In this document: in pieces, positions 1 through 62,687 of the stretch | Position numbering within the stretch: position 1 is the first letter of the stretch | How the letters are laid out: each line of letters begins with the position of its first letter | Assembly (NCBI GenBank): GCA_947494565.1 | Contig: CANLVG010000001.1 | Span: 186,001-250,000, forward strand | Direction: 5' to 3' | DNA from: an uncultured Flavobacteriaceae bacterium | GTDB taxonomy: Bacteria > Bacteroidota > Bacteroidia > Flavobacteriales > Flavobacteriaceae | DNA length: 64,000 nt | Position numbers and translations under genes: made by a program | The notes under the pieces: generated by a model | Databases searched by the model: none | What the model was told of the DNA's origin: nothing | What the model saw: the letters and a program-made list of their open reading frames with translations, nothing else

Positions 1-269
1 GAAAAGGTAGATACACCACTGCCAATAGATGAACTTGGACCTAGTAGCAAAATGTTGATCGCACCATCTTGGTTCATGTCCACATCGGCCGGTTCTTCAA
101 TAGGTGAATCCATCGAATCGGTATCATCGTCGGAAGCGCCTACTTCTTCCGTGTCAACGGTCGATGGTTCATCTTTGCTACAACCCATAACTACAAATAG
201 TACTGCTAGGCAGAATAAGGAGATGTAGTGGGTATTCCTAGTTCGAAAATTATGGGACTTGGTTATCAT
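1..269 (-). CDS. Lipoprotein, N-terminal part (runs off the window)
   Basis: Only the first 89 codons are inside the window. The ATG at 269 opens a hydrophobic signal segment (residues 17-29) ending in a lipobox, V-M-G-C, with the lipidated Cys at residue 30. An acidic, disordered linker rich in Asp, Glu and Ser follows (31-63). It leads into a D-M-N-Q-D-G motif like a calcium-binding loop, then a hydrophobic strand (INILLLG) that probably opens the folded domain. It is therefore likely a lipid-anchored exported protein. The domain itself is outside the window and the function is not recognisable. Confidence 0.7.
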   Translation of the reverse strand, partial: MITKSHNFRTRNTHYISLFCLAVLFVVMGCSKDEPSTVDTEEVGASDDDTDSMDSPIEEPADVDMNQDGAINILLLGPSSSIGSGVSTF

Positions 270-50976: not shown

Positions 50977-51927
50977 ATGTGGGTTTGGATTATTTTCATC
51001 GCTTTCATTTTGGTGTTCTTGGCATTAGACCTTGGTGTTTTCAACAAGGAGAATCATGTCATCAAAACAAAGGAGGCGAGCATCTGGACCGCTATTTGGG
51101 TGACGGTGGCCTTAAGCTTTAGCGGGGTCATTTATTGGCTCTTTTCTTCAGGACTAGTCGATAATCCCACTGGCCTTAGTCCTAGTAATGCAGTTCTAAA
51201 ATATGTCACCGGATATTTAATCGAGCTTTCGCTTAGCGTAGATAACATTTTTGTGATCGCTGTTATCTTTTCCTCCTTTAAAATTCCTCCAATCTATCAA
51301 CATCGTGTGTTGTTCTGGGGTATCTTGGGTGCTATTGTCTTTAGGGCTTTGATGATTCTATTCGGAGTGGCCTTGATTACCCGATTCGAATGGATCATCT
51401 ATGTCTTTGGAGTGTTCCTCCTGTACACTGCTTTCAAAATGTTAAAAGGTGAAGATGAGGAATTTGACCCTAAAAAATCGTTTGTTTTCAGACAACTAAA
51501 GAAAATCTATCCGATTACAGGAACCATTCAAGGCGATGAATTTTTCGTGAAACGCATGGGAATTAAGGCGGCAACACCCCTATTCGTTGCGCTTATTGTA
51601 ATTGAGCTTACCGATATTCTCTTTGCCTTAGATAGTATTCCCGCTATCTTGGCCATTACAGCCGACCCATTTTTGGTGTTCAGTTCAAATATTCTGGCGA
51701 TTATGGGGCTCCGGTCCATGTACTTCCTGATTTCAAGAATGTTGGAGAAGTTTCGTTTTATCAACTATAGCCTTGTGGTCATTTTGGCTTTCGTGGGTTT
51801 GAAAATGTTGCTTTCCCATCAACTACATCTGCCTGAATGGGTATCATTGACGGTCATAACCGTAGCACTTGTCGGTGGTATCATTGCTTCTCTGGTAATT
51901 CCGGAGACCTCAAAAACGGATGCCTAG
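50977..51927 (+). CDS. TerC-family membrane protein
   Basis: Integral membrane protein of 316 residues with about eight or nine helices. The TerC marks are clear: LALDLGVFNK at the start, LSVDNIFVIAVIFSSFKIP with the conserved Asp-Asn, ELTDILFALDSIPAILAIT and IMGLRSMYFLI. The family is linked to tellurium resistance and to metal (manganese) export during membrane-protein assembly. Near the 5' end TAACTTCG (50951-50958) resembles a -7 box. Its stop TAG is shared as a CTAG palindrome with the convergent gene. Confidence 0.92.
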   Translation: MWVWIIFIAFILVFLALDLGVFNKENHVIKTKEASIWTAIWVTVALSFSGVIYWLFSSGLVDNPTGLSPSNAVLKYVTGYLIELSLSVDNIFVIAVIFSSFKIPPIYQHRVLFWGILGAIVFRALMILFGVALITRFEWIIYVFGVFLLYTAFKMLKGEDEEFDPKKSFVFRQLKKIYPITGTIQGDEFFVKRMGIKAATPLFVALIVIELTDILFALDSIPAILAITADPFLVFSSNILAIMGLRSMYFLISRMLEKFRFINYSLVVILAFVGLKMLLSHQLHLPEWVSLTVITVALVGGIIASLVIPETSKTDA

Positions 51928-52352
51928 TTTTTTGAAAAAACCGCGCTGTAAATTTTTTGGACACCCCAGTTGCCCAATGGAAAATAAAGTGCAAAGAATA
52001 GCGCCATAGACAGCGCGAAGTTACGTTCACCGAACAACCGATCCAACAAATTATCGGGATAGGCATATGATGTTTGCAGTGCATATCCACCAAATTCCAA
52101 TAGGCACATTGCGATAAGTCCGTATGCATATTGCACATGAAAAGGTAGGTTACGCAACAGGAGTGATATAGGTACCATATACAAGATATAACAGGTAATC
52201 ACTTGCCACCAATAGGTGAAACGGGCGATTTCAAACTCGGCTCCTATCCAGTTCATGGTTAATCCCCATGAAAAATACACCAGACAATACGTTAAAAGTA
52301 GCTTTTGGTCAATTTTCAGTTTTACTTTAGCCCACTGGAAGAATTCAGACAT
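51924..52352 (-). CDS. Small four-helix membrane protein, unknown
   Basis: Start chosen at ATG 52352 (MSEFFQWAK), giving 142 residues; ATG 52379 adds nine. Four membrane helices are visible (LLLTYCLVYFSWGL, WWQVITCYILYMVPISLLL, YAYGLIAMCLLEFGGYAL and ALSMALFFALYFPLG). No family recognised. The protein is likely in the inner membrane. Its stop overlaps that of TerC by four bases, so the two transcripts converge with no room for a terminator. Confidence 0.65.
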   Translation of the reverse strand: MSEFFQWAKVKLKIDQKLLLTYCLVYFSWGLTMNWIGAEFEIARFTYWWQVITCYILYMVPISLLLRNLPFHVQYAYGLIAMCLLEFGGYALQTSYAYPDNLLDRLFGERNFALSMALFFALYFPLGNWGVQKIYSAVFSKN

Positions 52353-52475
52353 GATTCTTTTTTGTTTTATACAATTCATAATCGATAAGGCCTGCGCTTC
52401 ATATAACCGCAGCTGACATTCTTTTTAAACACCATTTGCGCTTGGCCCTTCGTCTATCTCTAATGATTTACGGTT

Positions 52476-52742
52476 CTAAGCTTTATCGGAAATTTTAGTC
52501 TCAATAATCTGAAGTGCATCCGAAACGGTCTGCATTTGGTCCATATCCTCGTTTTCCAAGATGATGTCAAAGGCATCTTCCACGTCGAGCACAATGTCCA
52601 CCAAATTGGCAGAATTAATATTTAGCTCATTGATAAAATGACTTTCCGAAGAAATCGCATCTACGGATACATCTTCGGGAAGGTAGATTTTGATAATCTC
52701 CCTGAGTTTTTCATAGCGCGATTCATCCATTAGCAGTTCCAT
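52476..52742 (-). CDS. Acyl carrier protein of the type III PKS operon
   Basis: Protein of 88 residues with the four-helix acyl carrier pattern. The phosphopantetheine site is expected at S44 in INSANLVDIVLDVEDAF. Ordinary carriers read D-S-L here; this one reads N-S-A, a notable change next to the attachment Ser. Helix II keeps the acidic face (DIVLDVEDAFDI) that docks synthases. The last gene of the seven-gene operon, 23 bases after the ketosynthase gene. It is probably a dedicated carrier rather than the housekeeping one. Confidence 0.87.
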   Translation of the reverse strand: MELLMDESRYEKLREIIKIYLPEDVSVDAISSESHFINELNINSANLVDIVLDVEDAFDIILENEDMDQMQTVSDALQIIETKISDKA

Positions 52743-52765
52743 TTTTCATTTACTTAATTCAACTA

Positions 52766-54049
52766 TCAGTCGTTAAAGGCACTAAAAATAACACAAGCAT
52801 TAACATCCCCAAAACCAAAACTTGCCTTTGCGATGATCTTTGGACGATATCTTTCCGTTTTTCTGGGTATTCTAGATGATGAAACATGTGCTTCTATCTC
52901 TGGATTGAGGTCTTCACAATTCACGTTGCCAAAAATCACGTTCTCCTTGAATTGTAGCACCGCACCAACGCATTCGATGCTTCCTGCCGCAGCCAAGCAA
53001 TGCCCAACAAGCCCTTTGAACGAATTGACATACGGAAAATCAGTTCCAGAGCGTTCCAGGGCCCTACTCCAATTCTTAAGCTCTAGGGTGTCTTTTGACG
53101 TGGCCGTCAAATGCCCATTGATCAGGTCGATTTCCGTTTTTTCGATTCCGGAATTCCGTACGGCCTCTTCGATGCAGCGTGTGACGGCCTCACTATTGGG
53201 TGCGGTCATTGAACCTTCTCCACGTTGCCCACCACTGTTTACCGAACCTCCTAAAACCTCTGCGTAAATCGTTGCATTGCGCTGTTGGGCACTCTCCAAG
53301 GATTCCAATACCAAGGCCCCTGCTCCACTACCCGGAACAAAACCGGCTGCCGTTGCACTCATGGGTCTACTACCCTTTGTAGGACGTTCATTGTATTGTC
53401 GTGGAAGTATGCGCATGGCATCGAATCCACCCCAGACATAGGGCCCACTATCGCTGCAACTCCCCACAAGCATGCGTTTTGCCTTGCCTGATTGAATACG
53501 ATCGTAAGCCATTAGAATCCCTTCCGTACCTGTTGTACAAGCGGAAGAATTGGTAGTAACCTGATTTCCGCATCCTAAAATACCACCCAAATAGGCACTG
53601 ATACCACTGGCCATGGTCTGCAGCACGGTAGTACTTCCCAAACGCCTGACCTTATGGTCGTCTACCAAATGAATGGACTCACGAAATTTATCCACTCCAA
53701 GAATACCCGTTCCAAAAATGATACCGGTATCCCAATCAGGACCTGTCGATCGGTCCATTTTGAGTCCCGCATCCTTCCACGCATCCGTACCTGCAATGAC
53801 TCCATAAACAATACCACTTGCATTTAACCCCCTTAGCTGTAATGGAGTAAAATAGTTGTTCGCCAGATTATCGGGAACAAGAGGCTCCGCAGCGATCTGA
53901 CAGCCGAAACCAAGGTCTTGTAATTGCGGTTGAAAGCGGATGCCACTTTTACCGTCTTTAAGGGCTTCGGTGAAATCATGGAGTCCAATTCCGTTCGGGG
54001 CACATACCCCTAAGCCAGTGATGACCACGCGTCTAGGCATTTCCTTCAT
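52766..54049 (-). CDS. Beta-ketoacyl-ACP synthase (KAS II type)
   Basis: Ketosynthase of 427 residues of the FabF/KAS II fold. It condenses an acyl chain with malonyl-ACP. The Cys-His-His triad is present: C171 in TNSSACTTGTEG, H313 in NGHLTATSKDTLE, and H350 in KGLVGHCLAAAG. The usual HGT motif around the first His is changed to GHLTAT, which may alter substrate choice. ATG 54040 (MPRRVVITG) is a likely alternative start; either start overlaps the dehydratase gene. Part of the type III PKS operon. Confidence 0.92.
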   Translation of the reverse strand: MKEMPRRVVITGLGVCAPNGIGLHDFTEALKDGKSGIRFQPQLQDLGFGCQIAAEPLVPDNLANNYFTPLQLRGLNASGIVYGVIAGTDAWKDAGLKMDRSTGPDWDTGIIFGTGILGVDKFRESIHLVDDHKVRRLGSTTVLQTMASGISAYLGGILGCGNQVTTNSSACTTGTEGILMAYDRIQSGKAKRMLVGSCSDSGPYVWGGFDAMRILPRQYNERPTKGSRPMSATAAGFVPGSGAGALVLESLESAQQRNATIYAEVLGGSVNSGGQRGEGSMTAPNSEAVTRCIEEAVRNSGIEKTEIDLINGHLTATSKDTLELKNWSRALERSGTDFPYVNSFKGLVGHCLAAAGSIECVGAVLQFKENVIFGNVNCEDLNPEIEAHVSSSRIPRKTERYRPKIIAKASFGFGDVNACVIFSAFND

Positions 54050-54476
54050 TTTTAAACATTCCTGAAATCACCCCCTTACAGACCAATTCACCTTCTGAAT
54101 TATGCATCTTCACTTTACACTTTAGTTTATGAAAACGAAAGTACTCCTTTTCGGATGTGACGGTTACCTGTTCGTTCGGAACTACCGGAAGGTAGTATTC
54201 CATTGCCGTACTCGTCAAGGCGATTTTCGTCTGTGCAGAGGCCTTGCCGTCCAACAAAAAAATTCCCAAACATACCAGTCCGATCTGTGCACAACATTCG
54301 GTCAATAGTACTCCTGGCGTGACGGCATAATCTTTAAAATGTCCTCGAAAAAAGTCCAAATCCTCTCGAAACGTATACTTTCCTTTGGTGCCATCGGCAT
54401 TCACTTCCAACAGATCATCGACAAACAGAAAAGGTTTGGCATAAGGCAATGCTGCAATGATTTCATTGGTTGTCAT
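54033..54476 (-). CDS. 3-hydroxyacyl-ACP dehydratase, FabZ-like hotdog
   Basis: Hotdog-fold protein of 147 residues. The FabZ/FabA pattern is clear: PYAKPFLFVDDLLEV, the catalytic His in RGHFKDYAVTPGVLLTE (H46) and Glu60 as the second catalytic residue. It dehydrates 3-hydroxyacyl-ACP to enoyl-ACP in a fatty-acid-like cycle. It lies between the SDR and ketosynthase genes of the operon, overlapping the latter by 8 or 17 bases depending on its start. Confidence 0.9.
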   Translation of the reverse strand: MTTNEIIAALPYAKPFLFVDDLLEVNADGTKGKYTFREDLDFFRGHFKDYAVTPGVLLTECCAQIGLVCLGIFLLDGKASAQTKIALTSTAMEYYLPVVPNEQVTVTSEKEYFRFHKLKCKVKMHNSEGELVCKGVISGMFKNEGNA

Positions 54477-54515
54477 GAGGTCTTCTTTTGTTTTTATTCA
54501 ATCTTCGATCTGTAA

Positions 54516-55298
54516 TTAGCGTAAACTTTCACCTCCATCCACAGTGATGATCGTTCCGGTAATCCATTTTGCTTCATCAGTTGTTAGTAGGTATACTACA
54601 TTGGCCACATCTTCAGGGGTGGTTAGGCGTCCGTTCGGATTGCGTACCAAAGCACTTTTCCGTAATTCCTCATGTCCGGGAATCATAGTGAAGGCATTCG
54701 TCACGGTCGTTCCGGCCTGTATGCAGTTGGCTTTGATTCCATAAGGTGCAAATTCCAAGGCGATATTTCGCGACAATGCCTCAAGCGTCACCTTGGCTGC
54801 GGAAACGGCGGCATAACCAGGCCAGGCCTTGGTATTGCCTTCGCTGGTAAAGGATATGATTCTGGTATCGGGAGCGAATAAATTCATAGTATGCAGCTGT
54901 TTTACCCAATCATATAGGCTCAAGGCCATGGCGTTCAGGGTGATTTGAAAGTCTTGGTGATTCAATGTGGCTTCCGATTCTGATTGCATGGGTTTTAAAC
55001 TTCCCTTGGCAATACTATGTACCAGAACCTTGATTTTGTTTTGATCCATTAACCCTTGAATCTCTTCTAAAAAAAGCGTTCTTTTTTCTGCATTACCGGC
55101 ATCAATATTGAAGCATTTTAGGATAGCCCCTTTCGAGGTGATTTCCTCAAATTCCGCATTTATCACTGGCATATCGGAACGTCGGTCTCGATGGACGACG
55201 ATAATTTGATACCCATGAGAGGCCAGTTTCTTAGCTGTTGCCAAACCCAACCCACTACTTCCTCCAAGAATTAAGGCCCATTCTTTTTTTTCAGTCAT
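54516..55298 (-). CDS. SDR oxidoreductase, enoyl-ACP-reductase-like
   Basis: Short-chain dehydrogenase of 260 residues with the cofactor motif GGSSGLG (12-18). The catalytic pair is Y162 and K169, spaced Y-x6-K as in FabI/FabL enoyl reductases, not the usual Y-x3-K of ketoreductases. The C-terminal ITGTIITVDGG is standard. It should reduce enoyl-ACP, although a ketoreductase role cannot be ruled out; no other ketoreductase is in the operon. It follows the type III PKS gene after 29 bases. Confidence 0.88.
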   Translation of the reverse strand: MTEKKEWALILGGSSGLGLATAKKLASHGYQIIVVHRDRRSDMPVINAEFEEITSKGAILKCFNIDAGNAEKRTLFLEEIQGLMDQNKIKVLVHSIAKGSLKPMQSESEATLNHQDFQITLNAMALSLYDWVKQLHTMNLFAPDTRIISFTSEGNTKAWPGYAAVSAAKVTLEALSRNIALEFAPYGIKANCIQAGTTVTNAFTMIPGHEELRKSALVRNPNGRLTTPEDVANVVYLLTTDEAKWITGTIITVDGGESLR

Positions 55299-55327
55299 TC
55301 CTTAAATTTATTCTTCCCCGTTCGTAG

Positions 55328-56383
55328 TTACCATTCTAATAAAACGCGTTGCGCCGAAAACCCAGGACCAAAGCTTAAAAGCAGGCCCTGCTCCCCTTCT
55401 GGAATACCTTTTTTCATGAAACGCTCTAAAACATATAATACGGTAGCACTGCTCATATTGCCATACGCTCGCAATACCTCACGGGTATCATCTATATTTT
55501 TTCCTAATTTACCGAACAATTCTTCAACTGTCTGAACAATTTTACGCCCGCCAGGATGAAATATAAGATGATCTACTGCTTCAATTGAACTGCCGTTGTC
55601 TCTTAAAAAAGGGTGAATGATCCCGGGGAAATGAAAAGCAATCGTTTCGGGTACCGAGGGGTCTAGTATCATGCGCAGTCCATGATTGGTCAAATCGAAT
55701 CCCATGAGATGGGTAGCATCTTTGAAATGGTACATCTCCTCACCCACTATTCGAGGTCCTTTTGCATTTGCTTCCGACGAAAGTAAGACGCAAGCTGCTC
55801 CGTCACCAAAGATGGCCGCGCTAATCATATTGGCCATAGAATAGTCTTCCAATTGAAATGTGGCCGTTGGACTCTCGACTGCTACTAAAGCTATTCGTTT
55901 ATCGGGGTTCGATTTTAAAAAATTATGGGCGTATATCAACCCTGAAACCCCAGCGGCACACCCCATCTCAGTTACAGGAAGCCGCACCACATCCTTACGC
56001 AAATCCAAGGCATTGATCAAATAGGCATCTAGCGAAGGAATCATTATACCGGTACAGCTAACCGTAATAATATAATCTAGGGAACTCGCCTCCCATTCGC
56101 TTTGTTGTAGCGCTTTCCGCAATACGGCTTCGCCTAATTTTTTGACTTCACGAACATAGATGGCATTCTTATCCTCGAAAGAAGTATGTGTGAAGACCTC
56201 TTCAATACTCATAATACCATATCGTTTGTCTACGGCCGCACCTTCAAAAATCTTGACTACTTTTCGTCTAAAACGGTCATCTTCATTGGCTAACCAAAGG
56301 TCAACAAATGGAATAATCTCTTCCGTGCTGCGACAGTATTCAGGGAGTTCCTGCGCCACGGTAACTATTCGGGTCTCATTCAT
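55328..56383 (-). CDS. Type III polyketide synthase (chalcone/stilbene synthase family)
   Basis: Start taken at ATG 56383 (MNETRIVTV), which overlaps the methyltransferase stop by 8 bases and gives 351 residues; the frame is open to 56449 but the extra residues look non-coding. The triad is C142 in TEMGCAAGVSGL, H276 in FHPGGRKIV and N309 in AYGNMSSATVLY; the final loop reads SFGPGFSAQ. It extends a starter acyl group with malonyl units and cyclises it to an aromatic or pyrone. Neighbouring ACP, ketosynthase, dehydratase and reductase suggest that the starter is made in the same operon. Confidence 0.93.
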   Translation of the reverse strand: MNETRIVTVAQELPEYCRSTEEIIPFVDLWLANEDDRFRRKVVKIFEGAAVDKRYGIMSIEEVFTHTSFEDKNAIYVREVKKLGEAVLRKALQQSEWEASSLDYIITVSCTGIMIPSLDAYLINALDLRKDVVRLPVTEMGCAAGVSGLIYAHNFLKSNPDKRIALVAVESPTATFQLEDYSMANMISAAIFGDGAACVLLSSEANAKGPRIVGEEMYHFKDATHLMGFDLTNHGLRMILDPSVPETIAFHFPGIIHPFLRDNGSSIEAVDHLIFHPGGRKIVQTVEELFGKLGKNIDDTREVLRAYGNMSSATVLYVLERFMKKGIPEGEQGLLLSFGPGFSAQRVLLEW

Positions 56384-57110
56384 ATACTTTTCCAATTCGA
56401 TTTGGCTGCATGACCCATACATAGCGAAACGCCCATTTCCAGGACACATGGTGTCTTACTAAGGGAAGACTTTTCGCATAAGACAGCAGATCAGATTTGA
56501 CGAATCCTTTACTAATGGAAATCAAACCATCAATTTTAGCAACTTTTGTTTTTATAAAAATACTACTAAAGAGTTGAAAGAGATAGTAGGCCAAACGACT
56601 GCGATGCAAATCGTTTATTACAATACCTATTTTTCCTAATTCAACGAACTTATTCAAAAATATGGGGAGTTGTGCCTCTGTAAAATGATGCATACAGAGG
56701 GTGTTGATCAAAATGTCACAATGAAATCGTTCCGTTTCAAGTTTCAGGATATCCTCATGTCGATACTCGATTTGAGGATAGTGTACAGAAGCTTCTTCTG
56801 CCAATTGTAGCGCCTCATGGTTCAAGTCTATACCGATCAAACGCACACGGATCTTTTTTTTATCGCAGAGTTTGGCAATTTCCCGAAGCATCGTCCCATC
56901 GCCACAGCCCATGTCAACAACAGTGTATTCTTTTTTTGGATTTGCTTCCATTAGCTTCGCCACGGCGGCGGTCGTAATTTTATTGCCCCCTAAAACCCGA
57001 TTGACGCGATTAATATCGGCGAATACGACCCGCAGTCGATCTACACCTTCCTGAAAATCATCCATGAGTTCGGGTTCCGTACTGCGTTCGCTAAGATCCT
57101 TTAGTTTCAT
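56376..57110 (-). CDS. Class I SAM methyltransferase of the PKS operon
   Basis: Protein of 244 residues with a Rossmann methyltransferase core: motif I VVDMGCGDGTML (about 64-75), IGIDLNHEALQLA, HEDILKLE and CDILINTLCMHHF. An N-terminal helical lid (1-60) and a C-terminal part with an amphipathic helix (KFVELGKIGIVINDLHRSRLAY in part) follow. It probably methylates the ring or oxygen of the polyketide product. It overlaps both neighbours, by 4 bases with the flavoprotein gene and 8 with the PKS gene. Confidence 0.9.
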   Translation of the reverse strand: MKLKDLSERSTEPELMDDFQEGVDRLRVVFADINRVNRVLGGNKITTAAVAKLMEANPKKEYTVVDMGCGDGTMLREIAKLCDKKKIRVRLIGIDLNHEALQLAEEASVHYPQIEYRHEDILKLETERFHCDILINTLCMHHFTEAQLPIFLNKFVELGKIGIVINDLHRSRLAYYLFQLFSSIFIKTKVAKIDGLISISKGFVKSDLLSYAKSLPLVRHHVSWKWAFRYVWVMQPNRIGKVYE

Positions 57111-58231
57111 ATAGGTTTACCATGTGTAAGCGTTATGATTCGGTTCAATACATTTGGAAAACGAACTGCAAGCCCTACGCCCAAACTAGCCGCTTTTTGA
57201 TTTAGTAATAGTGCTTGTAATTTTCTGCCTGTACGCATTCTTTTCTGAAATGTTCGATTCCATAGTTTGCGATATTCATTCTCTAATCGAGCCCTATTTC
57301 GGTTCTGACTTTTCAAATAGTCGCAGATTAGTTCGGAAGCTATCTTTGCAGAGTGAATCGCCATTGCCATGCCATTACCACAAAGGGGATGAATGAGTCC
57401 TGCCGTATCTCCACACATCAATATATGTCGCTCTACGGGCGATTTCGAGTGGAATGATATCTGGGCTATAGTCAACGGTTGCCCAAAAAGTGGTTGTGCC
57501 TTGTTTAAAAATTCCTTTAAGAAGGGATTCTCGGAAATGATATTTGTATTGAAATCGGCAATGTTCTTTTCTTTTTTAAAACTTTTGTACGATGCCAAAT
57601 AACAGAAGTTGACCACTCCGGTCTCCGTTTTGGACAACCCGCCATACCCGCCTTTAAAATTATGGAGCGCTACCAGATTATCTGGAAATTCATCATAACG
57701 ATAATGTGCCTTTACACCCAACCAAGAAGATTTTTGATGTATAAAAGTCCTGTTCAAGTTCTTATCGAGTGTATTTCGTTTTCCATAGGCTCCAATGACC
57801 AGCTCACTGTTGAATTCCTCGCCAGTTGCGGTACGAACCTTAAAACGGTCCTCATTGTATTCGACCGCCGTGACTTCACCAAGGAAAAAATCGACGCCTG
57901 AATCCATGGCTTTTTTATAAAGTAGGTCGTCAAATGCAAAGCGACTGATACCTATTCCACCCAAGGGAAGTTCGGTATGCACCGATTTGCCTTCTGGAGA
58001 ACTCAGTAACAATGTGTCTATGACTTTTGGTCGCAGACCTTCAAAGGAAACTCCTAAGGATTGCAAATAGGGTATTACTTCGTTGGAAACATATTCACCG
58101 CAGACTTTGTGATGGGGGTAGGTTTTTTTTTCGACCAGCAATACCGAATGGCCTTGTTGGCGTAAATGTAAAGAAGCGGTAAGCCCGGCAAGTCCGCCTC
58201 CAACAATGATGACCTGGTAATTCTTCTTCAC
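57107..58231 (-). CDS. FAD-dependent monooxygenase/reductase of the PKS operon
   Basis: Flavoprotein of 374 residues with a GTG start at 58231; no upstream ATG fits. The N-terminal dinucleotide motif is VIIVGGGLAGLTASLHL with the acidic residue after strand 2 (LLVEKK). The second FAD motif is CGDTAGLIHPLCGNGMAMAI. This GD-x-A-G-x-x-P pattern marks the UbiH/geranylgeranyl-reductase group. It may hydroxylate the aromatic ring, on the way to a quinone, or reduce an isoprenoid or acyl chain. The first gene of the seven-gene operon; the terminator at 58253-58278 separates it from the OmpA pair. Confidence 0.9.
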   Translation of the reverse strand: MKKNYQVIIVGGGLAGLTASLHLRQQGHSVLLVEKKTYPHHKVCGEYVSNEVIPYLQSLGVSFEGLRPKVIDTLLLSSPEGKSVHTELPLGGIGISRFAFDDLLYKKAMDSGVDFFLGEVTAVEYNEDRFKVRTATGEEFNSELVIGAYGKRNTLDKNLNRTFIHQKSSWLGVKAHYRYDEFPDNLVALHNFKGGYGGLSKTETGVVNFCYLASYKSFKKEKNIADFNTNIISENPFLKEFLNKAQPLFGQPLTIAQISFHSKSPVERHILMCGDTAGLIHPLCGNGMAMAIHSAKIASELICDYLKSQNRNRARLENEYRKLWNRTFQKRMRTGRKLQALLLNQKAASLGVGLAVRFPNVLNRIITLTHGKPI

Positions 58232-58252
58232 GAAGGAAAGATAAGAATTAAA

Positions 58253-58278
58253 AAATCCCGACGCTTCCGCCGGGATTT
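58253..58278 (-). terminator. Rho-independent terminator of the OmpA/lipocalin pair
   Basis: AAATCCCG (58253-58260) pairs perfectly with CGGGATTT (58271-58278) around a 10-base loop. On the minus strand it ends in CGGGATTTTTTAA, a good T-run, 25 bases past the OmpA stop. Confidence 0.8.
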
Positions 58279-58303
58279 AAAATTATATTCTTGTTCGTTG
58301 ACG

Positions 58304-58999
58304 CTATTGCCCTGCCTTTCTTTTGGCCTCGTCCTTTAATTCCTCGTTTGCCACAATAGCCAGTTCAACCCGTCTGTTCTTACTTTTTCCTTCCGCTGTC
58401 GAATTATCGGCCTTAGGTTGCAGTTCACCATACCATTTTGTGGTAAAGCGTCCATTACTGATGCCTTGTGCAATGAGATAATTAGTCACAGATTCTGCTC
58501 TTTGTTGAGATAACTTCATGTTGTAATCTTCAGGTCCGGCACTATCGGTATGGCCTTCTACCAAGATATACGACTTGGGGTATTCCTTGAAGATTCCCGC
58601 CAATTTGTTCAATGTTTGGGCTGAAGTGCCTTTCACATTTGATTTACTCGTATCAAAATACACTCCCGCTTCTTCATTGAAGGTCACATTGATCCCTTCA
58701 CCCACACGGGTCACTTCCGCACCGGGAATTTCTTCTTCGATACGTTCGGCCTGTCGGTCCATTCGGTCACCGATAAAGCCTCCTGCAACTCCTCCCACTA
58801 CGGCGCCAATAATCGCACCCAAAGCCGTATTGTTGCCTTTGCCCACATTATTACCCAGAACACCACCGATTACGGCACCGCTGGTAGCGCCCACTACGGC
58901 TCCCTTTTGTTTATGATTGGCATTCTTGACGGTGCTGCAACTAAATAATACAGCAAAGGATAAGACAGTGAGTATACTTTTTTTAAGATTATTCTTCAT
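58304..58999 (-). CDS. OmpA-family lipoprotein with glycine zipper
   Basis: Start at ATG 58999 (MKNNLKKSIL), giving 231 residues and avoiding overlap with the upstream gene. The lipobox ends at Cys in VLFSCSTVK. Residues about 35-85 form a YMGG/glycine-zipper stretch (GAVIGGVLGNNVGKGNNTALG, read in parts) that can pass a membrane. The OmpA C-terminal domain (about 115-225) shows VEGHTDSAGPEDYN, LSQQRAESVTNYL and KSKNRRVEL, the peptidoglycan-binding pattern. It ties the outer membrane to the wall. It follows the lipocalin-like gene after 10 bases. Confidence 0.92.
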   Translation of the reverse strand: MKNNLKKSILTVLSFAVLFSCSTVKNANHKQKGAVVGATSGAVIGGVLGNNVGKGNNTALGAIIGAVVGGVAGGFIGDRMDRQAERIEEEIPGAEVTRVGEGINVTFNEEAGVYFDTSKSNVKGTSAQTLNKLAGIFKEYPKSYILVEGHTDSAGPEDYNMKLSQQRAESVTNYLIAQGISNGRFTTKWYGELQPKADNSTAEGKSKNRRVELAIVANEELKDEAKRKAGQ

Positions 59000-59009
59000 G
59001 GGGGTTGTT

Positions 59010-59492
59010 TTAAGATTTTTTATTGAATTTATAAACGATATTGATGACTTTTCCATCTACAGTGGCATTCGATTTCAACACCATAGTCTCGGCGGTCAGT
59101 GTAGTGATGTTCAATCGATACCCAAGCCCGGTTACATCTTTGTTCTTTTCATCGATTCGCTTGAACTGTAATTGACTGGAATAATTTTCTGGACTGTCAA
59201 CCACCGACCAGCGAATAAATCGATCGCCACCGGTACAAAGTGATGAAGACGCAATTGTGTAGCGCCCTGTGCTATTGTTGTCCCTGAAAAACCAGTCACT
59301 ACCTTCAAAACAAATGTCGTCGGCATCATTAAAAATGACGGATTTGAAGTTTCCCGTCCCATTTTCGTACGAAACATCTTCAAGGGTCCAAGTACCACTT
59401 AGTAAGTTCCGTTTTTCCTGAACGGCCTTTGAAATGGAACAAGAGGAAACGAGCATTAAGAGTGCAATCAGAAGGAAAAAATATTTATTCAT
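59010..59492 (-). CDS. Lipocalin-like lipoprotein
   Basis: Protein of 160 residues with a lipobox L-V-S-S-C (Cys18). The mature part has the lipocalin-family pattern of Flavobacteriaceae (LSGTWTLEDVSYENGTGNF, DWFFRDNNSTGRYTI, LNITTLTAETMVLKS). It is probably a small beta-barrel anchored in a membrane and paired with the OmpA-like protein, as often seen in this family. Ligand unknown. A weak LytTR-like pair (59534-59560) lies about 45 bases upstream. Confidence 0.85.
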   Translation of the reverse strand: MNKYFFLLIALLMLVSSCSISKAVQEKRNLLSGTWTLEDVSYENGTGNFKSVIFNDADDICFEGSDWFFRDNNSTGRYTIASSSLCTGGDRFIRWSVVDSPENYSSQLQFKRIDEKNKDVTGLGYRLNITTLTAETMVLKSNATVDGKVINIVYKFNKKS

Positions 59493-59629
59493 TAAATCAG
59501 AATTTAGGGGTTTCAGCTATATACGACAGAATTGAACGTCTGGTCTTCCGAAAGAACGTTCATTACCAAAAAATATGACAGAGGAAGCATGAAAATCGAC
59601 AAAATACATAAGGTATATCAGGGTAACCT

Positions 59630-61606
59630 TCAATAGGCGACCAGTTGTAGCAATGCCTCTTCAAAACGCTCTTTTGGCAGGTATTGCTCTTCCAGGTTCT
59701 TGGCAAAGGGAATAGGCGTCTCAAGGCTGGCTATCCTTCTTACAGGGCCATCAAGATATTCGAATCGATTTTCCATAACCAAGGCCGAAATATCACTGGC
59801 AATTCCACCAAAAAGGCTATCTTCCTGTAAAATGATGAGTTTACCTGTTTTTTCCACGGAGGCATAAACGGTTTCGATATCTAGGGGTTGCAAGGTACGC
59901 AAGTCAATCAGATCAGCGGAAATATCTGGATGCCTTCCCAGGGTTGCCAAGGCCCAGTGTACACCGGCTCCGTAGGTCACCACGGTAATGGTATCCCCTT
60001 CTTTAAGCAGGCTTGCCTTGCCGAAGGGTAAGGTATAGTAATTCGTTGGCACATCTTGATAAATGCTTCGATACAAGGCCTTATGCTCAAAAAAGAGTAC
60101 GGGATTGGGATCATCGATAGCCGTGGCCAATAGGCCCTTCGCATCGTAGGGAAAGGCCGGATAGACCACTTTCAGGCCCGGAGTCTTTGTAAACCAGGCC
60201 TCATTCGTCTGTGAGTGGAAAGGTCCGGCAGCTACTCCGCCTCCACATGGCATGCGAATCACAACATCAGCCTTCTCGTTCCATCGATAGTGCATCTTTG
60301 CCAAATAATTCACTATCGGATTAAAACCAGTACTCGCAAAGTCGGCGAATTGCATTTCCATCACGGCCTTCATACCATTAATTGACAATCCGGCTGCCGC
60401 TGAAACGATTACAGACTCGCAAATAGGCGTATTTCGAACCCTTTCCTTGCCAAAAGAGTCTACAAAACCTTCTGTAATCTTAAATACGCCACCATAATCG
60501 GCGATATCTTGTCCCATGAGCACCAGATTGTCATGTAGCTCCATGGATTGGCGTAGTCCTTCCGATATCGCATCGACCAATCGAATACTTTTAAGGTCCG
60601 AACCGGGTTCGACCGCTTTGGGGGTATACTGTTGGTATACATCCTCAAGTTCGCATTGCTTGACCACTGGAACGGTTTCTTCTTCAAACGCTATCTTTAG
60701 ATGTTCGTCTATTTCAGTACTTATTTTCGCTTTTCGATCGGCTATGATGTCATCGGTGAGTATACCTTCTTTCAAGAGATAGGATTCATAATTCGCAATA
60801 GGGTCTTTGGCAGCCCATTCCTCCATCAAATCATTCGGTACATATTTGGTGCCGCTTGCCTCCTCATGACCCCGCATACGGAATGTCTTGAACTCTAACA
60901 GTACCGGTGCAGGGTTTTCACGCATTCGCTCGCAAAGGGTATTGACTTTTGAGAAGACCTCAAGTATATTGTTTCCATCTATGACATGGGCTTCTATACC
61001 ATACCCCTTTCCCTTGTCGGCCAGATGTTCACACCGATATTGCTCGCGGGTGGGTGTGGAAAGTCCATATCCATTATTTTCAATACAGAACAAAACAGGC
61101 AAGTCCCATACAGCCGCTACATTCAGTGCTTCGTGAAAATCACCTTCACTAGTACCACCTTCACCCGTAAAAACAGCGGTCACCAACTTTCGTTTCTTAA
61201 GTACATTGGCTAAAGCTATTCCATCAGCTACCCCGAGTTGTGGTCCGAGGTGTGATATCATGCCTATGATGTTGTAGTCTTGTGTTCCGAAATGAAAACT
61301 ACGATCCCTTCCTTTGGTAAACCCCGATGCCTTTCCTTGCCATTGAGCAAATAGGCGATGTAATGGAATGTTCCTGGTGGTGAACACCCCTAAATTTCGA
61401 TGCATGGGCAGTACATACTCCTCATTCCGCATGGTGCTGGCGACACCCACCGAAATGGCCTCTTGACCAATTCCACTGAACCACTTTGATATCTTCCCCT
61501 GCCGAAGCAGTATCAACATCTTCTCTTCGATCATCCGAGGTTTTAGCATTCGCTCATAGAGTTTGAGCTGTACTTCTTGGGGTATTCCTTTCGTATCGTA
61601 TTGCAT
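59630..61606 (-). CDS. 2-oxoacid dehydrogenase E1, fused alpha and beta subunits
   Basis: Thiamine-diphosphate enzyme of 658 residues. The alpha part (about 1-320) holds the cofactor site GEGGTSEGDFHEALN (148-162) ending in IENN, and the phosphorylation-loop-like RDRSFHFG. The beta part (about 335-658) shows SVIVSAAAGLSINGMKAVMEMQFADF and RMPCGGGVAAGPFHSQTNEAWF, with the transketolase C-terminal domain near LIDLRTLQPLD. It is expected to feed acyl groups to a lipoyl E2, most likely from branched-chain 2-oxoacids or pyruvate. Its E2 and E3 are not in the window. A single-gene unit. Confidence 0.93.
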   Translation of the reverse strand: MQYDTKGIPQEVQLKLYERMLKPRMIEEKMLILLRQGKISKWFSGIGQEAISVGVASTMRNEEYVLPMHRNLGVFTTRNIPLHRLFAQWQGKASGFTKGRDRSFHFGTQDYNIIGMISHLGPQLGVADGIALANVLKKRKLVTAVFTGEGGTSEGDFHEALNVAAVWDLPVLFCIENNGYGLSTPTREQYRCEHLADKGKGYGIEAHVIDGNNILEVFSKVNTLCERMRENPAPVLLEFKTFRMRGHEEASGTKYVPNDLMEEWAAKDPIANYESYLLKEGILTDDIIADRKAKISTEIDEHLKIAFEEETVPVVKQCELEDVYQQYTPKAVEPGSDLKSIRLVDAISEGLRQSMELHDNLVLMGQDIADYGGVFKITEGFVDSFGKERVRNTPICESVIVSAAAGLSINGMKAVMEMQFADFASTGFNPIVNYLAKMHYRWNEKADVVIRMPCGGGVAAGPFHSQTNEAWFTKTPGLKVVYPAFPYDAKGLLATAIDDPNPVLFFEHKALYRSIYQDVPTNYYTLPFGKASLLKEGDTITVVTYGAGVHWALATLGRHPDISADLIDLRTLQPLDIETVYASVEKTGKLIILQEDSLFGGIASDISALVMENRFEYLDGPVRRIASLETPIPFAKNLEEQYLPKERFEEALLQLVAY

Positions 61607-61702
61607 GTTATATTTTAAAGGTCATAGTGCAAAAATCGGGATAAATGTAACAAAAAAGACCACAAAAGTGAGTTGATATCAGCTCGCCCATACAATATTT
61701 AT

Positions 61703-61710
61703 TAACTTTG
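61703..61710 (+). promoter_or_regulatory. Predicted -7 box for the dioxygenase gene
   Basis: TAACTTTG matches TAnnTTTG exactly, 23 bases before the ATG at 61734. The only TTG upstream (61673-61675) is further than usual. Confidence 0.45.
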
Positions 61711-61733
61711 GATCCAACTTCAAAAGTAGTACT

Positions 61734-62687
61734 ATGAGCGCAGTACCCAGTGTAGATTTACGGGATTTTACTTCAGAAGAGCCTGCTAGAAAACAAAAGT
61801 TCATTCGAGAAATAGGCAAAGCTTTCGAGGAAATTGGTTTCGTCGCCTTGAGTGGACACTTTTTGTCCCAGGAATTGGTGGATACCCTTTATGGTGAGAT
61901 CAAGAAATTTTTCGAGCTCGACCAGGAGATTAAAGACAGGTATGAAATTCCTGGTATTGGAGGTCAACGAGGATACACTTCATTTGGAAAAGAACATGCC
62001 AAAGGACGCAAAGAAGGTGATTTGAAGGAGTTTTGGCATTTTGGGCAATATGTAGAGGACAATCCGAAATTAGAAGCTGAATACCCTGCCAATGTAACGG
62101 TTAGCGAGCTTTCCGATTTCAATAGTGTTGGTGAGGAAACCTATAAAATGTTGGAGAAAACGGCAAAATACGTGCTTCGGGCCTTGGCGCTGCATTTAGA
62201 TTTAGAAGAATATTATTTTGACCCATATATCAAAAACGGCAACTCTATTTTGAGACCTATTCATTATCCTCCCATCAAGGAAGAGCCTAAAAATGCAGTC
62301 CGTGCGGCCGCACATGGCGATATCAACCTTATCACCCTACTTATGGGAGCCCATGGCAAAGGCCTACAAGTGATGAACCATGAGGGCGAGTGGGTCGACG
62401 CCATCGCAAGACCAGATCAGTTGATGATCAATGTGGGTGATATGTTATCGCGATTGACCAATAACAAGTTGAAATCGACCATACACCAGGTCGTCAATCC
62501 GCCCAAGGAGCTTTGGGGTACTTCCCGTTATTCCATCCCCTTCTTTATGCATCCTATTAGCGAAATGCCCTTAAACTGTTTGGAAGATTGTATTGATGAC
62601 GCCAACCCTAAAGGTTTCGAAGATATTACGGCCGGTGCATTCTTGAATGAACGGTTGATCGAACTGGGATTGGTAAAGCCCAAGTAG
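61734..62687 (+). CDS. Isopenicillin-N-synthase-like 2-oxoglutarate/Fe(II) dioxygenase
   Basis: Protein of 317 residues of the IPNS/DIOX family. The iron ligands are H194-x-D196 in AAHGDINL and H251 in STIHQVVNPP. The R-x-S motif that holds the co-substrate carboxylate is R265-Y-S267. The N-terminal DIOX_N region (about 5-120) has VPSVDLRDF and FEEIGFVALSGH. Such proteins are common in bacteria, and the substrate is not predictable. No signal peptide. It stands alone on the plus strand and is divergent from the E1 gene. Confidence 0.92.
   Translation: MSAVPSVDLRDFTSEEPARKQKFIREIGKAFEEIGFVALSGHFLSQELVDTLYGEIKKFFELDQEIKDRYEIPGIGGQRGYTSFGKEHAKGRKEGDLKEFWHFGQYVEDNPKLEAEYPANVTVSELSDFNSVGEETYKMLEKTAKYVLRALALHLDLEEYYFDPYIKNGNSILRPIHYPPIKEEPKNAVRAAAHGDINLITLLMGAHGKGLQVMNHEGEWVDAIARPDQLMINVGDMLSRLTNNKLKSTIHQVVNPPKELWGTSRYSIPFFMHPISEMPLNCLEDCIDDANPKGFEDITAGAFLNERLIELGLVKPK

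Follow-up and report, generated by a model that had tools for sequence, protein, structure and literature searches.

A conserved seven-gene operon of Flavobacteriaceae that joins a type III polyketide synthase to discrete fatty-acid enzymes

Introduction

Type III polyketide synthases (PKSs) mostly use starters bound to coenzyme A (CoA; PMC6274091). In the hierridin hidABC genes, in planctomycete gene trios, and in the pkqABC and srsABC trios, the type III PKS gene is adjoined by a methyltransferase and a flavoprotein gene, and the products are alkylresorcinols, hierridin or quinones (PMC10896814, PMC8086630, PMC9927152). In Azotobacter, the ars genes place a dedicated fatty acid synthase (FAS) beside type III PKSs, and the chain is passed from the acyl carrier protein (ACP) domain of ArsA, a “type I fatty acid synthase” according to a reference title, to ArsB or ArsC (PMC6274091). 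Chains from upstream carrier-bound machinery are also taken by CylI of cylindrocyclophane biosynthesis (PMC8086630), and the Steely proteins of Dictyostelium are FAS-chalcone synthase fusions (PMC9489281). Here we describe a seven-gene operon at positions 52476-58231, minus strand, of a window of 64,000 nucleotides, i.e., the whole stretch of DNA analysed (contig CANLVG010000001.1, positions 186,001 to 250,000, assembly GCA_947494565.1, from an uncultured Flavobacteriaceae bacterium). As in the trios, a methyltransferase and a flavoprotein gene adjoin a type III PKS gene, but the synthase comes from the other half of the type III PKS family and is accompanied by a four-gene cassette of discrete, type II fatty-acid enzymes (FAS-II); the Hid, Pkq, and Srs systems are likened to it here by kind of gene, not by sequence. 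The operon is real and conserved, and its parts are of known kinds, while their combination is new.

Type III PKS clusters have been mentioned in Flavobacteriaceae (PMC7440613, PMC7477175, PMC6139392), and in a survey of 66 bacteria they ranked second in number in this family, with 9% of the clusters and no product named (PMC7440613); the excerpts of these papers give neither a product nor the seven-gene layout. Among the literature matches listed, from a search outside which subscription papers and patents lay, we found no description of this layout, nor any report of enzyme activity for an ortholog of its synthase.

Gene content and active sites

Identities were assigned to the seven genes from Pfam and NCBIfam profile matches. 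The first encodes a flavin adenine dinucleotide (FAD)-dependent oxidoreductase resembling geranylgeranyl reductases and flavin monooxygenases (57107-58231; 374 residues, GTG start), which scores 47 bits against PF01494 (cut-off 22) and has as its best NCBIfam match TIGR02032, the geranylgeranyl-reductase superfamily, at 119.8 bits and hence under the cut-off of 158.8, with QhpG second at 92.3 bits. It overlaps by 4 base pairs (bp) the gene of an S-adenosylmethionine-dependent methyltransferase (MT; 56376-57110; 244 residues; Methyltransf_25, 49.2 bits, cut-off 27; NF004851, 126.9 bits, under the cut-off of 243). The type III PKS follows (55328-56383; 351 residues), with the N- and C-terminal chalcone/stilbene synthase domains and fold. 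Its listed open reading frame runs to 56449, and the true start is probably 56383 (Met23 of that frame), since most aligned orthologs begin there. The cassette then comprises a short-chain dehydrogenase/reductase (SDR) closest to the enoyl-ACP reductase FabL (54516-55298; 260 residues), a FabZ-like hotdog-fold dehydratase (DH; 54033-54476; 147 residues), a FabF-like beta-ketoacyl-ACP synthase (KS; 52766-54049; 427 residues), and an ACP (52476-52742; 88 residues). None of the seven genes contains an internal stop, and their junctions, from FAD gene to ACP gene, measure -4, -8, +29, +39, -17, and +23 bp, the second being computed from the start at 56383 rather than from that of the listed frame.

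The active sites of the synthase and of the cassette are intact in the window and across the aligned relatives. In the type III PKS, Cys142, His276, and Asn309 are invariant in all 65 rows, as are Cys171, His313, and His350 together with Lys345 in the KS (62 rows), His46 and Glu60 in the DH (61 rows), and the phosphopantetheine-bearing Ser44 (motif NINSANL) in the ACP (62 rows). For the SDR, the pair Tyr162-x6-Lys169 is invariant in 56 rows, one of them gapped at this point (the alignment omits locus L134), and Val or Ile stands where a Y-x3-K ketoreductase would carry Tyr (55 rows, one gap). The SDR reaches 92 bits against the FlxB profile, for which the cut-off is 340, and is thus outside the FlxB-type Y-x3-K ketoreductases; judged from its Y-x6-K spacing, it is most likely a FabL-like enoyl reductase. 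Among solved structures, none related to the flavoprotein was found at E 1e-10, one related to the methyltransferase at E 1e-4 (25.9 bits), and none related to the SDR at E 1e-27 (35 at E 1e-15).

A first-pass annotation of this DNA had described seven minus-strand genes with gaps under 40 bases, an intact Cys-His-Asn triad in the PKS, and acyl-chain machinery belonging to the operon itself. All seven genes lie where it placed them, the largest gap being 39 bp, and the triad holds well beyond the window. The acyl-chain genes do form a distinct cassette, the other KS matches in the same genome being at most 31% identical to the operon KS. Three of those KS matches cluster with an SDR match at about 82-97 kb on contig C2 of this genome, perhaps as an aryl-polyene or flexirubin-like locus.

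Conservation of the operon

Across 199 Flavobacteriaceae genomes from 198 genera, a type III PKS of the operon clade was found in 63, at an identity of at least 58%. The remaining 136 genomes comprised one (G072) with a different type III PKS (34% identity), 132 with weak matches (best E 1.3e-13 or weaker), and three with none. A KS ortholog (E 1e-90) occurred in 62 of the 199 genomes, and all 62 were among the 63 with the PKS clade. The two genes are therefore coupled at the genome level in this sample, kinship being uncorrected for (Fisher p 2.5e-51, phylogeny ignored).

Gene order was examined at 61 of the 62 relatives' loci. G066, in which the operon is spread over two contigs, was left out because its contig is short, and the 34%-identical synthase of G072 (locus L093), which has no matches to the other six genes beside it, also lies outside the 61. 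The order FAD-MT-PKS was kept at every locus and the full order of seven at 50; the losses concerned the SDR at seven loci, the DH at one, and DH, KS, and ACP together at three. In two genomes, G190 (L281) and G144 (L282), the operon is split, with DH-KS-ACP relocated as one block and FAD-MT-PKS-SDR still together, and in G138 the DH is represented by a partial match at a contig edge and a KS ortholog was not found. Scattering of the genes in close relatives, which the first-pass annotation had named as a finding that would refute it, was thus not borne out, and this conservation rules out chance or an annotation artefact as the explanation of the arrangement. At one locus (L092, G150:C1:841108-842162), the type III PKS match is spread over two reading frames.

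The same layout recurs in titled database records, some of which may duplicate genomes of the 199-genome set. Among the best 80 matches listed, 66 loci hold all seven genes in order, including loci of Zobellia, Maribacter, Salegentibacter, and Aquimarina, and four lie on contigs shorter than 9 kb. All seven Arenibacter loci among these 80 (L193, L196, L198, L206, L226, L236, and L240) have six genes and no SDR, and the loss is possibly genus-wide. A phosphopantetheinyl transferase-like gene, which we take to be such from the motifs GNDxVD ... SMKEA, directly follows the ACP gene, overlapping or abutting it, at 16 of the 61 ACP-bearing loci scanned (L053, L056, L064, L066, L073, L076, L079, L081, L082, L085, L086, L089, L090, L129, L134, and L141). 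The window has no such gene at that position, and its genome has two PF01648 matches.

Beyond the family, the type III PKS was detected at E 1e-60 in 26 of the 395 genomes searched from the class, including that of the window. Five other family codes (f3, f10, f51, f54, and f75) supply 13 more loci, with synthases 49-71% identical to that of the window; the FAD, DH, and KS genes stand in the same order at all 13, and there are matches to the MT at 12, to the SDR at 12, and to the ACP at eight. Taken together with the 61 family loci and three from the wider phylum, these make a set of 77 loci spanning six family codes, in which the FAD gene is present at 77, the MT at 76, the KS at 74, the DH at 73, the ACP at 69, and the SDR at 67; all seven genes stand in order at 57, and the order is nowhere violated. 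As in Azotobacter, dedicated FAS genes are thus linked to a type III PKS, but here they encode separate type II proteins, not a multidomain type I enzyme, and are joined by methyltransferase and flavoprotein genes. The discrete FabF-, FabZ-, FabL-, and ACP-type proteins likewise set the operon apart from the CylI and Steely systems, which rely on type I PKSs or on a FAS fusion.

Relationship of the synthase to other type III PKSs

The wider setting was drawn from a chalcone-synthase-domain search that gave matches in 144 of 296 genomes of the phylum, from which 40 loci were picked, some of them truncated at contig ends. Three of the 40 are of the seven-gene kind, two of these without the SDR, and the other 37 hold divergent type III PKSs (26-36% identity), none with an operon-type KS match at its locus. 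Related MT and FAD genes lie on the PKS strand at 19 of these 37 loci, and the MT alone at seven; the same two genes are annotated as type III PKS neighbours on Paludisphaera and Paracoccus plasmids, again forming a trio. Column 229 (window numbering) separates the two kinds cleanly, with Phe in all 65 seven-gene synthases and Trp in all 37 others.

In a first tree, the window clade sided with THNS, Pks11, CylI, and six other type III PKSs without MT or FAD genes, and the opposite side held the other 32, including all 19 with both genes, along with Pks18, Steely1, and the Ectocarpus enzyme. In a second, the trio synthases and those of the Paludisphaera and Paracoccus plasmids formed one side (support 100/99), opposite the window clade. 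The window side also held the plasmid synthases of Rhizobium, Nitrobacter, and Stenotrophomonas, which are 31-35% identical to that of the window and are linked to methyltransferases of another, isoprenylcysteine-type family, with neither a flavoprotein nor a FAS cassette among their annotated neighbours; these pairs are presumably BpsAB-like. A single clade uniting the window synthases with trio synthases of the class was rejected on another sequence set (approximately unbiased (AU) test, p 0.0019). These trees took in 16 or 9 of the 64 seven-gene loci (set A), the SrsA, PkqA, and HidC sequences standing outside them, and the tree tool issued a long-branch warning for the PKS, the FAD/MT, and the AU-test trees.

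Mean identities of the neighbouring genes follow another pattern. For the synthase, they are 70.7% within set A, 27.8% between set A and the class-level trios, and 34.2% between class-level and phylum-level trios; the corresponding values are 49.3%, 40.5%, and 28.5% for the FAD protein and, with weak contrast, 41.6%, 32.2%, and 34.8% for the MT. The best FAD tree groups set A with the class-level trios, if weakly (49/86), and a grouping with the outgroup rows was not rejected (AU p 0.351); for the MT, the former grouping is outside the best tree and was not rejected (p 0.277), nor was the latter (p 0.292). We read this as an exchange of the synthase in an operon that shares its tailoring genes with the trios, with a direction that the FAD and MT trees leave unsettled. 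Since an operon-type KS is found at none of the 37 loci and all 19 trio synthases fall in the other half of the tree, the seven-gene operon amounts to trio-like tailoring genes with a different synthase and a FAS-II cassette. The likeness to srsABC drawn in the first-pass annotation accordingly extends at most to the methyltransferase/flavoprotein pair, by kind of gene (SrsB and SrsC sequences being outside the comparison), and does not reach the synthase, whose clade differs from that of the synthases with MT and FAD neighbours at the 19 loci and on the two plasmids.

Two sequence traits of the synthase were set aside. A basic patch at its entrance (window positions 34-55; mean of 6.7 basic residues in set A and 4.6 in set B) was not used as evidence, because several reference sequences are truncated in that region. 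Assignment of the ring type through the ArsB Trp281/ArsC Gly284 switch was abandoned, Trp at the His-3 position being common to Pks18, Pks11, CylI, and the Ectocarpus enzyme, so that this column cannot separate pyrone from resorcinol makers.

Proposed pathway and alternatives

The reading we favour, and consider somewhat probable, is that discrete fatty-acid enzymes and a type III PKS work here as one hybrid line, whose end product is methylated, either a phenolic lipid or an alkyl quinone. An acyl chain would be made or lengthened on the operon ACP by the KS, the DH, and the enoyl reductase, together with a ketoreductase supplied by primary metabolism; the type III PKS would accept this ACP-bound chain as its starter, add malonyl units, and cyclise the product to a resorcinol or pyrone, which the methyltransferase and the flavoprotein would then methylate and oxidise on the ring. 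A precedent for the methylation comes from a planctomycete trio, with alkylresorcinols bearing one extra, probably carbon-bound, methyl group (PMC10896814).

Several observations weigh against this pathway. The operon has neither a ketoreductase nor a chain-release gene. The SDR is lost at seven of the 61 family loci, and a search of those seven genomes at E 1e-30 gave no ortholog at another site (the query does match its own genome); ten of the best 80 titled loci, seven of them from Arenibacter, also do without it. The enoyl reductase is therefore dispensable or its step varies. The ACP was not found at five of the 13 distant loci. The co-occurrence test ignores phylogeny, and a single operon lost as a whole would give much the same table. 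Among solved folds, the nearest to the synthase is Pks11, with CylI among the next, and as these make different products, a pyrone and a resorcinol, the fold leaves the ring type unfixed; the candidate columns for a cyclisation residue, putative counterparts of ArsB Trp281, hold Phe229 (65 of 65 rows) and Leu273 (63 of 65). Finally, the study of the planctomycete trios itself leaves the role of their flavoprotein unresolved (PMC10896814).

It is also conceivable, if unlikely, that the synthase makes an aromatic or pyrone core such as phloroglucinol from malonyl-CoA or an ordinary acyl-CoA alone, the acyl group of the cassette being added at a later stage or serving another purpose. A patent reportedly describes the Zobellia galactanivorans type III PKS as a phloroglucinol synthase; Zobellia orthologs of the window synthase, 79-81% identical to it, sit in the seven-gene operon. 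Both the Ectocarpus enzyme and PhlD turn malonyl-CoA into phloroglucinol, but enzymes of this kind also take long acyl-CoAs in vitro (PMC6274091), so that formation of phloroglucinol would still be compatible with an acyl starter. A second active-site cysteine, Cys110 (the column of THNS Cys106), is present in 64 of the 65 seven-gene rows, with one gap, yet it is uninformative here, since 32 of the 37 other Bacteroidota synthases share it; attachment of an acyl group would also find no acyltransferase gene in the operon.

Two further schemes concern the chain itself. The KS could hand a beta-ketoacyl-ACP straight to the synthase, which would then make fewer malonyl additions, as in CylI, and the missing ketoreductase fits such a handover, as does the fold comparison, in which CylI, known from structures with a resorcinol product and a beta-ketoacyl substrate, stands among the nearest entries after Pks11. 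This would leave the DH and enoyl reductase without a substrate unless a ketoreductase also acts, and as the DH is retained at 73 of the 77 loci, reduction is probably used; we regard direct handover as improbable. The KS-DH-SDR-ACP set also resembles aryl polyene gene sets, and the cassette might by the same logic, or that of flexirubin, make a conjugated polyene chain, giving a pigment with an unsaturated tail. The absence of the SDR at the seven family loci would suit this scheme, as would an Aequorivita genome that was labelled T3pks-arylpolyene and whose synthase shares 69% identity with the one in Zobellia galactanivorans (PMC6139392). The SDR features given above, i.e., the enoyl-reductase spacing, the Val or Ile in the place of Tyr, and a FlxB score well under the cut-off, run counter to it, and we hold it to be very improbable.

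Returning to the hybrid line on a dedicated acyl-ACP, we tentatively suggest, as a possibility that we would not call probable, that a separate class of type II FAS/type III PKS hybrids arose in Bacteroidia when a trio-kind operon exchanged its synthase for a member of the opposite half of the family and gained a private FAS-II cassette with it, and that its product may be a new methylated alkyl quinone or phenolic lipid serving as a membrane or redox lipid in many marine flavobacteria. Polyketide quinones act as electron carriers (PMC9927152). An operon with discrete fatty-acid enzymes of its own would leave the chain for the cell to determine, and identifying the product would give a function to a conserved orphan operon of common marine bacteria. 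With two types of synthase beside similar tailoring genes, nature also offers a comparison in which carrier recognition and ring specificity could be tested.

Operon boundaries and neighbouring genes

Upstream, a terminator-like hairpin on the minus strand (58253-58278; 11 pairs and a T tail) lies between an OmpA gene and the operon; it has the longest stem of the 11 terminator-like sites found in 51800-59700, where shuffles gave a mean of 8.0. The one pattern tried for a Bacteroidetes-type promoter had no match in the window. Downstream, a possible eighth gene (51924-52379, minus strand; 151 residues, no Pfam family, a single weak hydrophobic peak) begins 96 bp after the ACP gene. Its counterparts lie on the same strand downstream of the ACP at 19 of the 77 loci, some with another genomic context, at distances from the ACP match of at most 54 bp in 14, 206-571 bp in four, and 2.8 kb in one. 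Among the 61 relatives, the upstream neighbours (window 58304-62687) recur as a gene presumed to be oxygenase-like at 43 loci, a 2-oxo acid dehydrogenase E1-like gene at 44, a lipocalin-like gene at 41, and OmpA at 40, and the downstream neighbour (window 50977-51927), which we take to be TerC-like, recurs at 24 loci.

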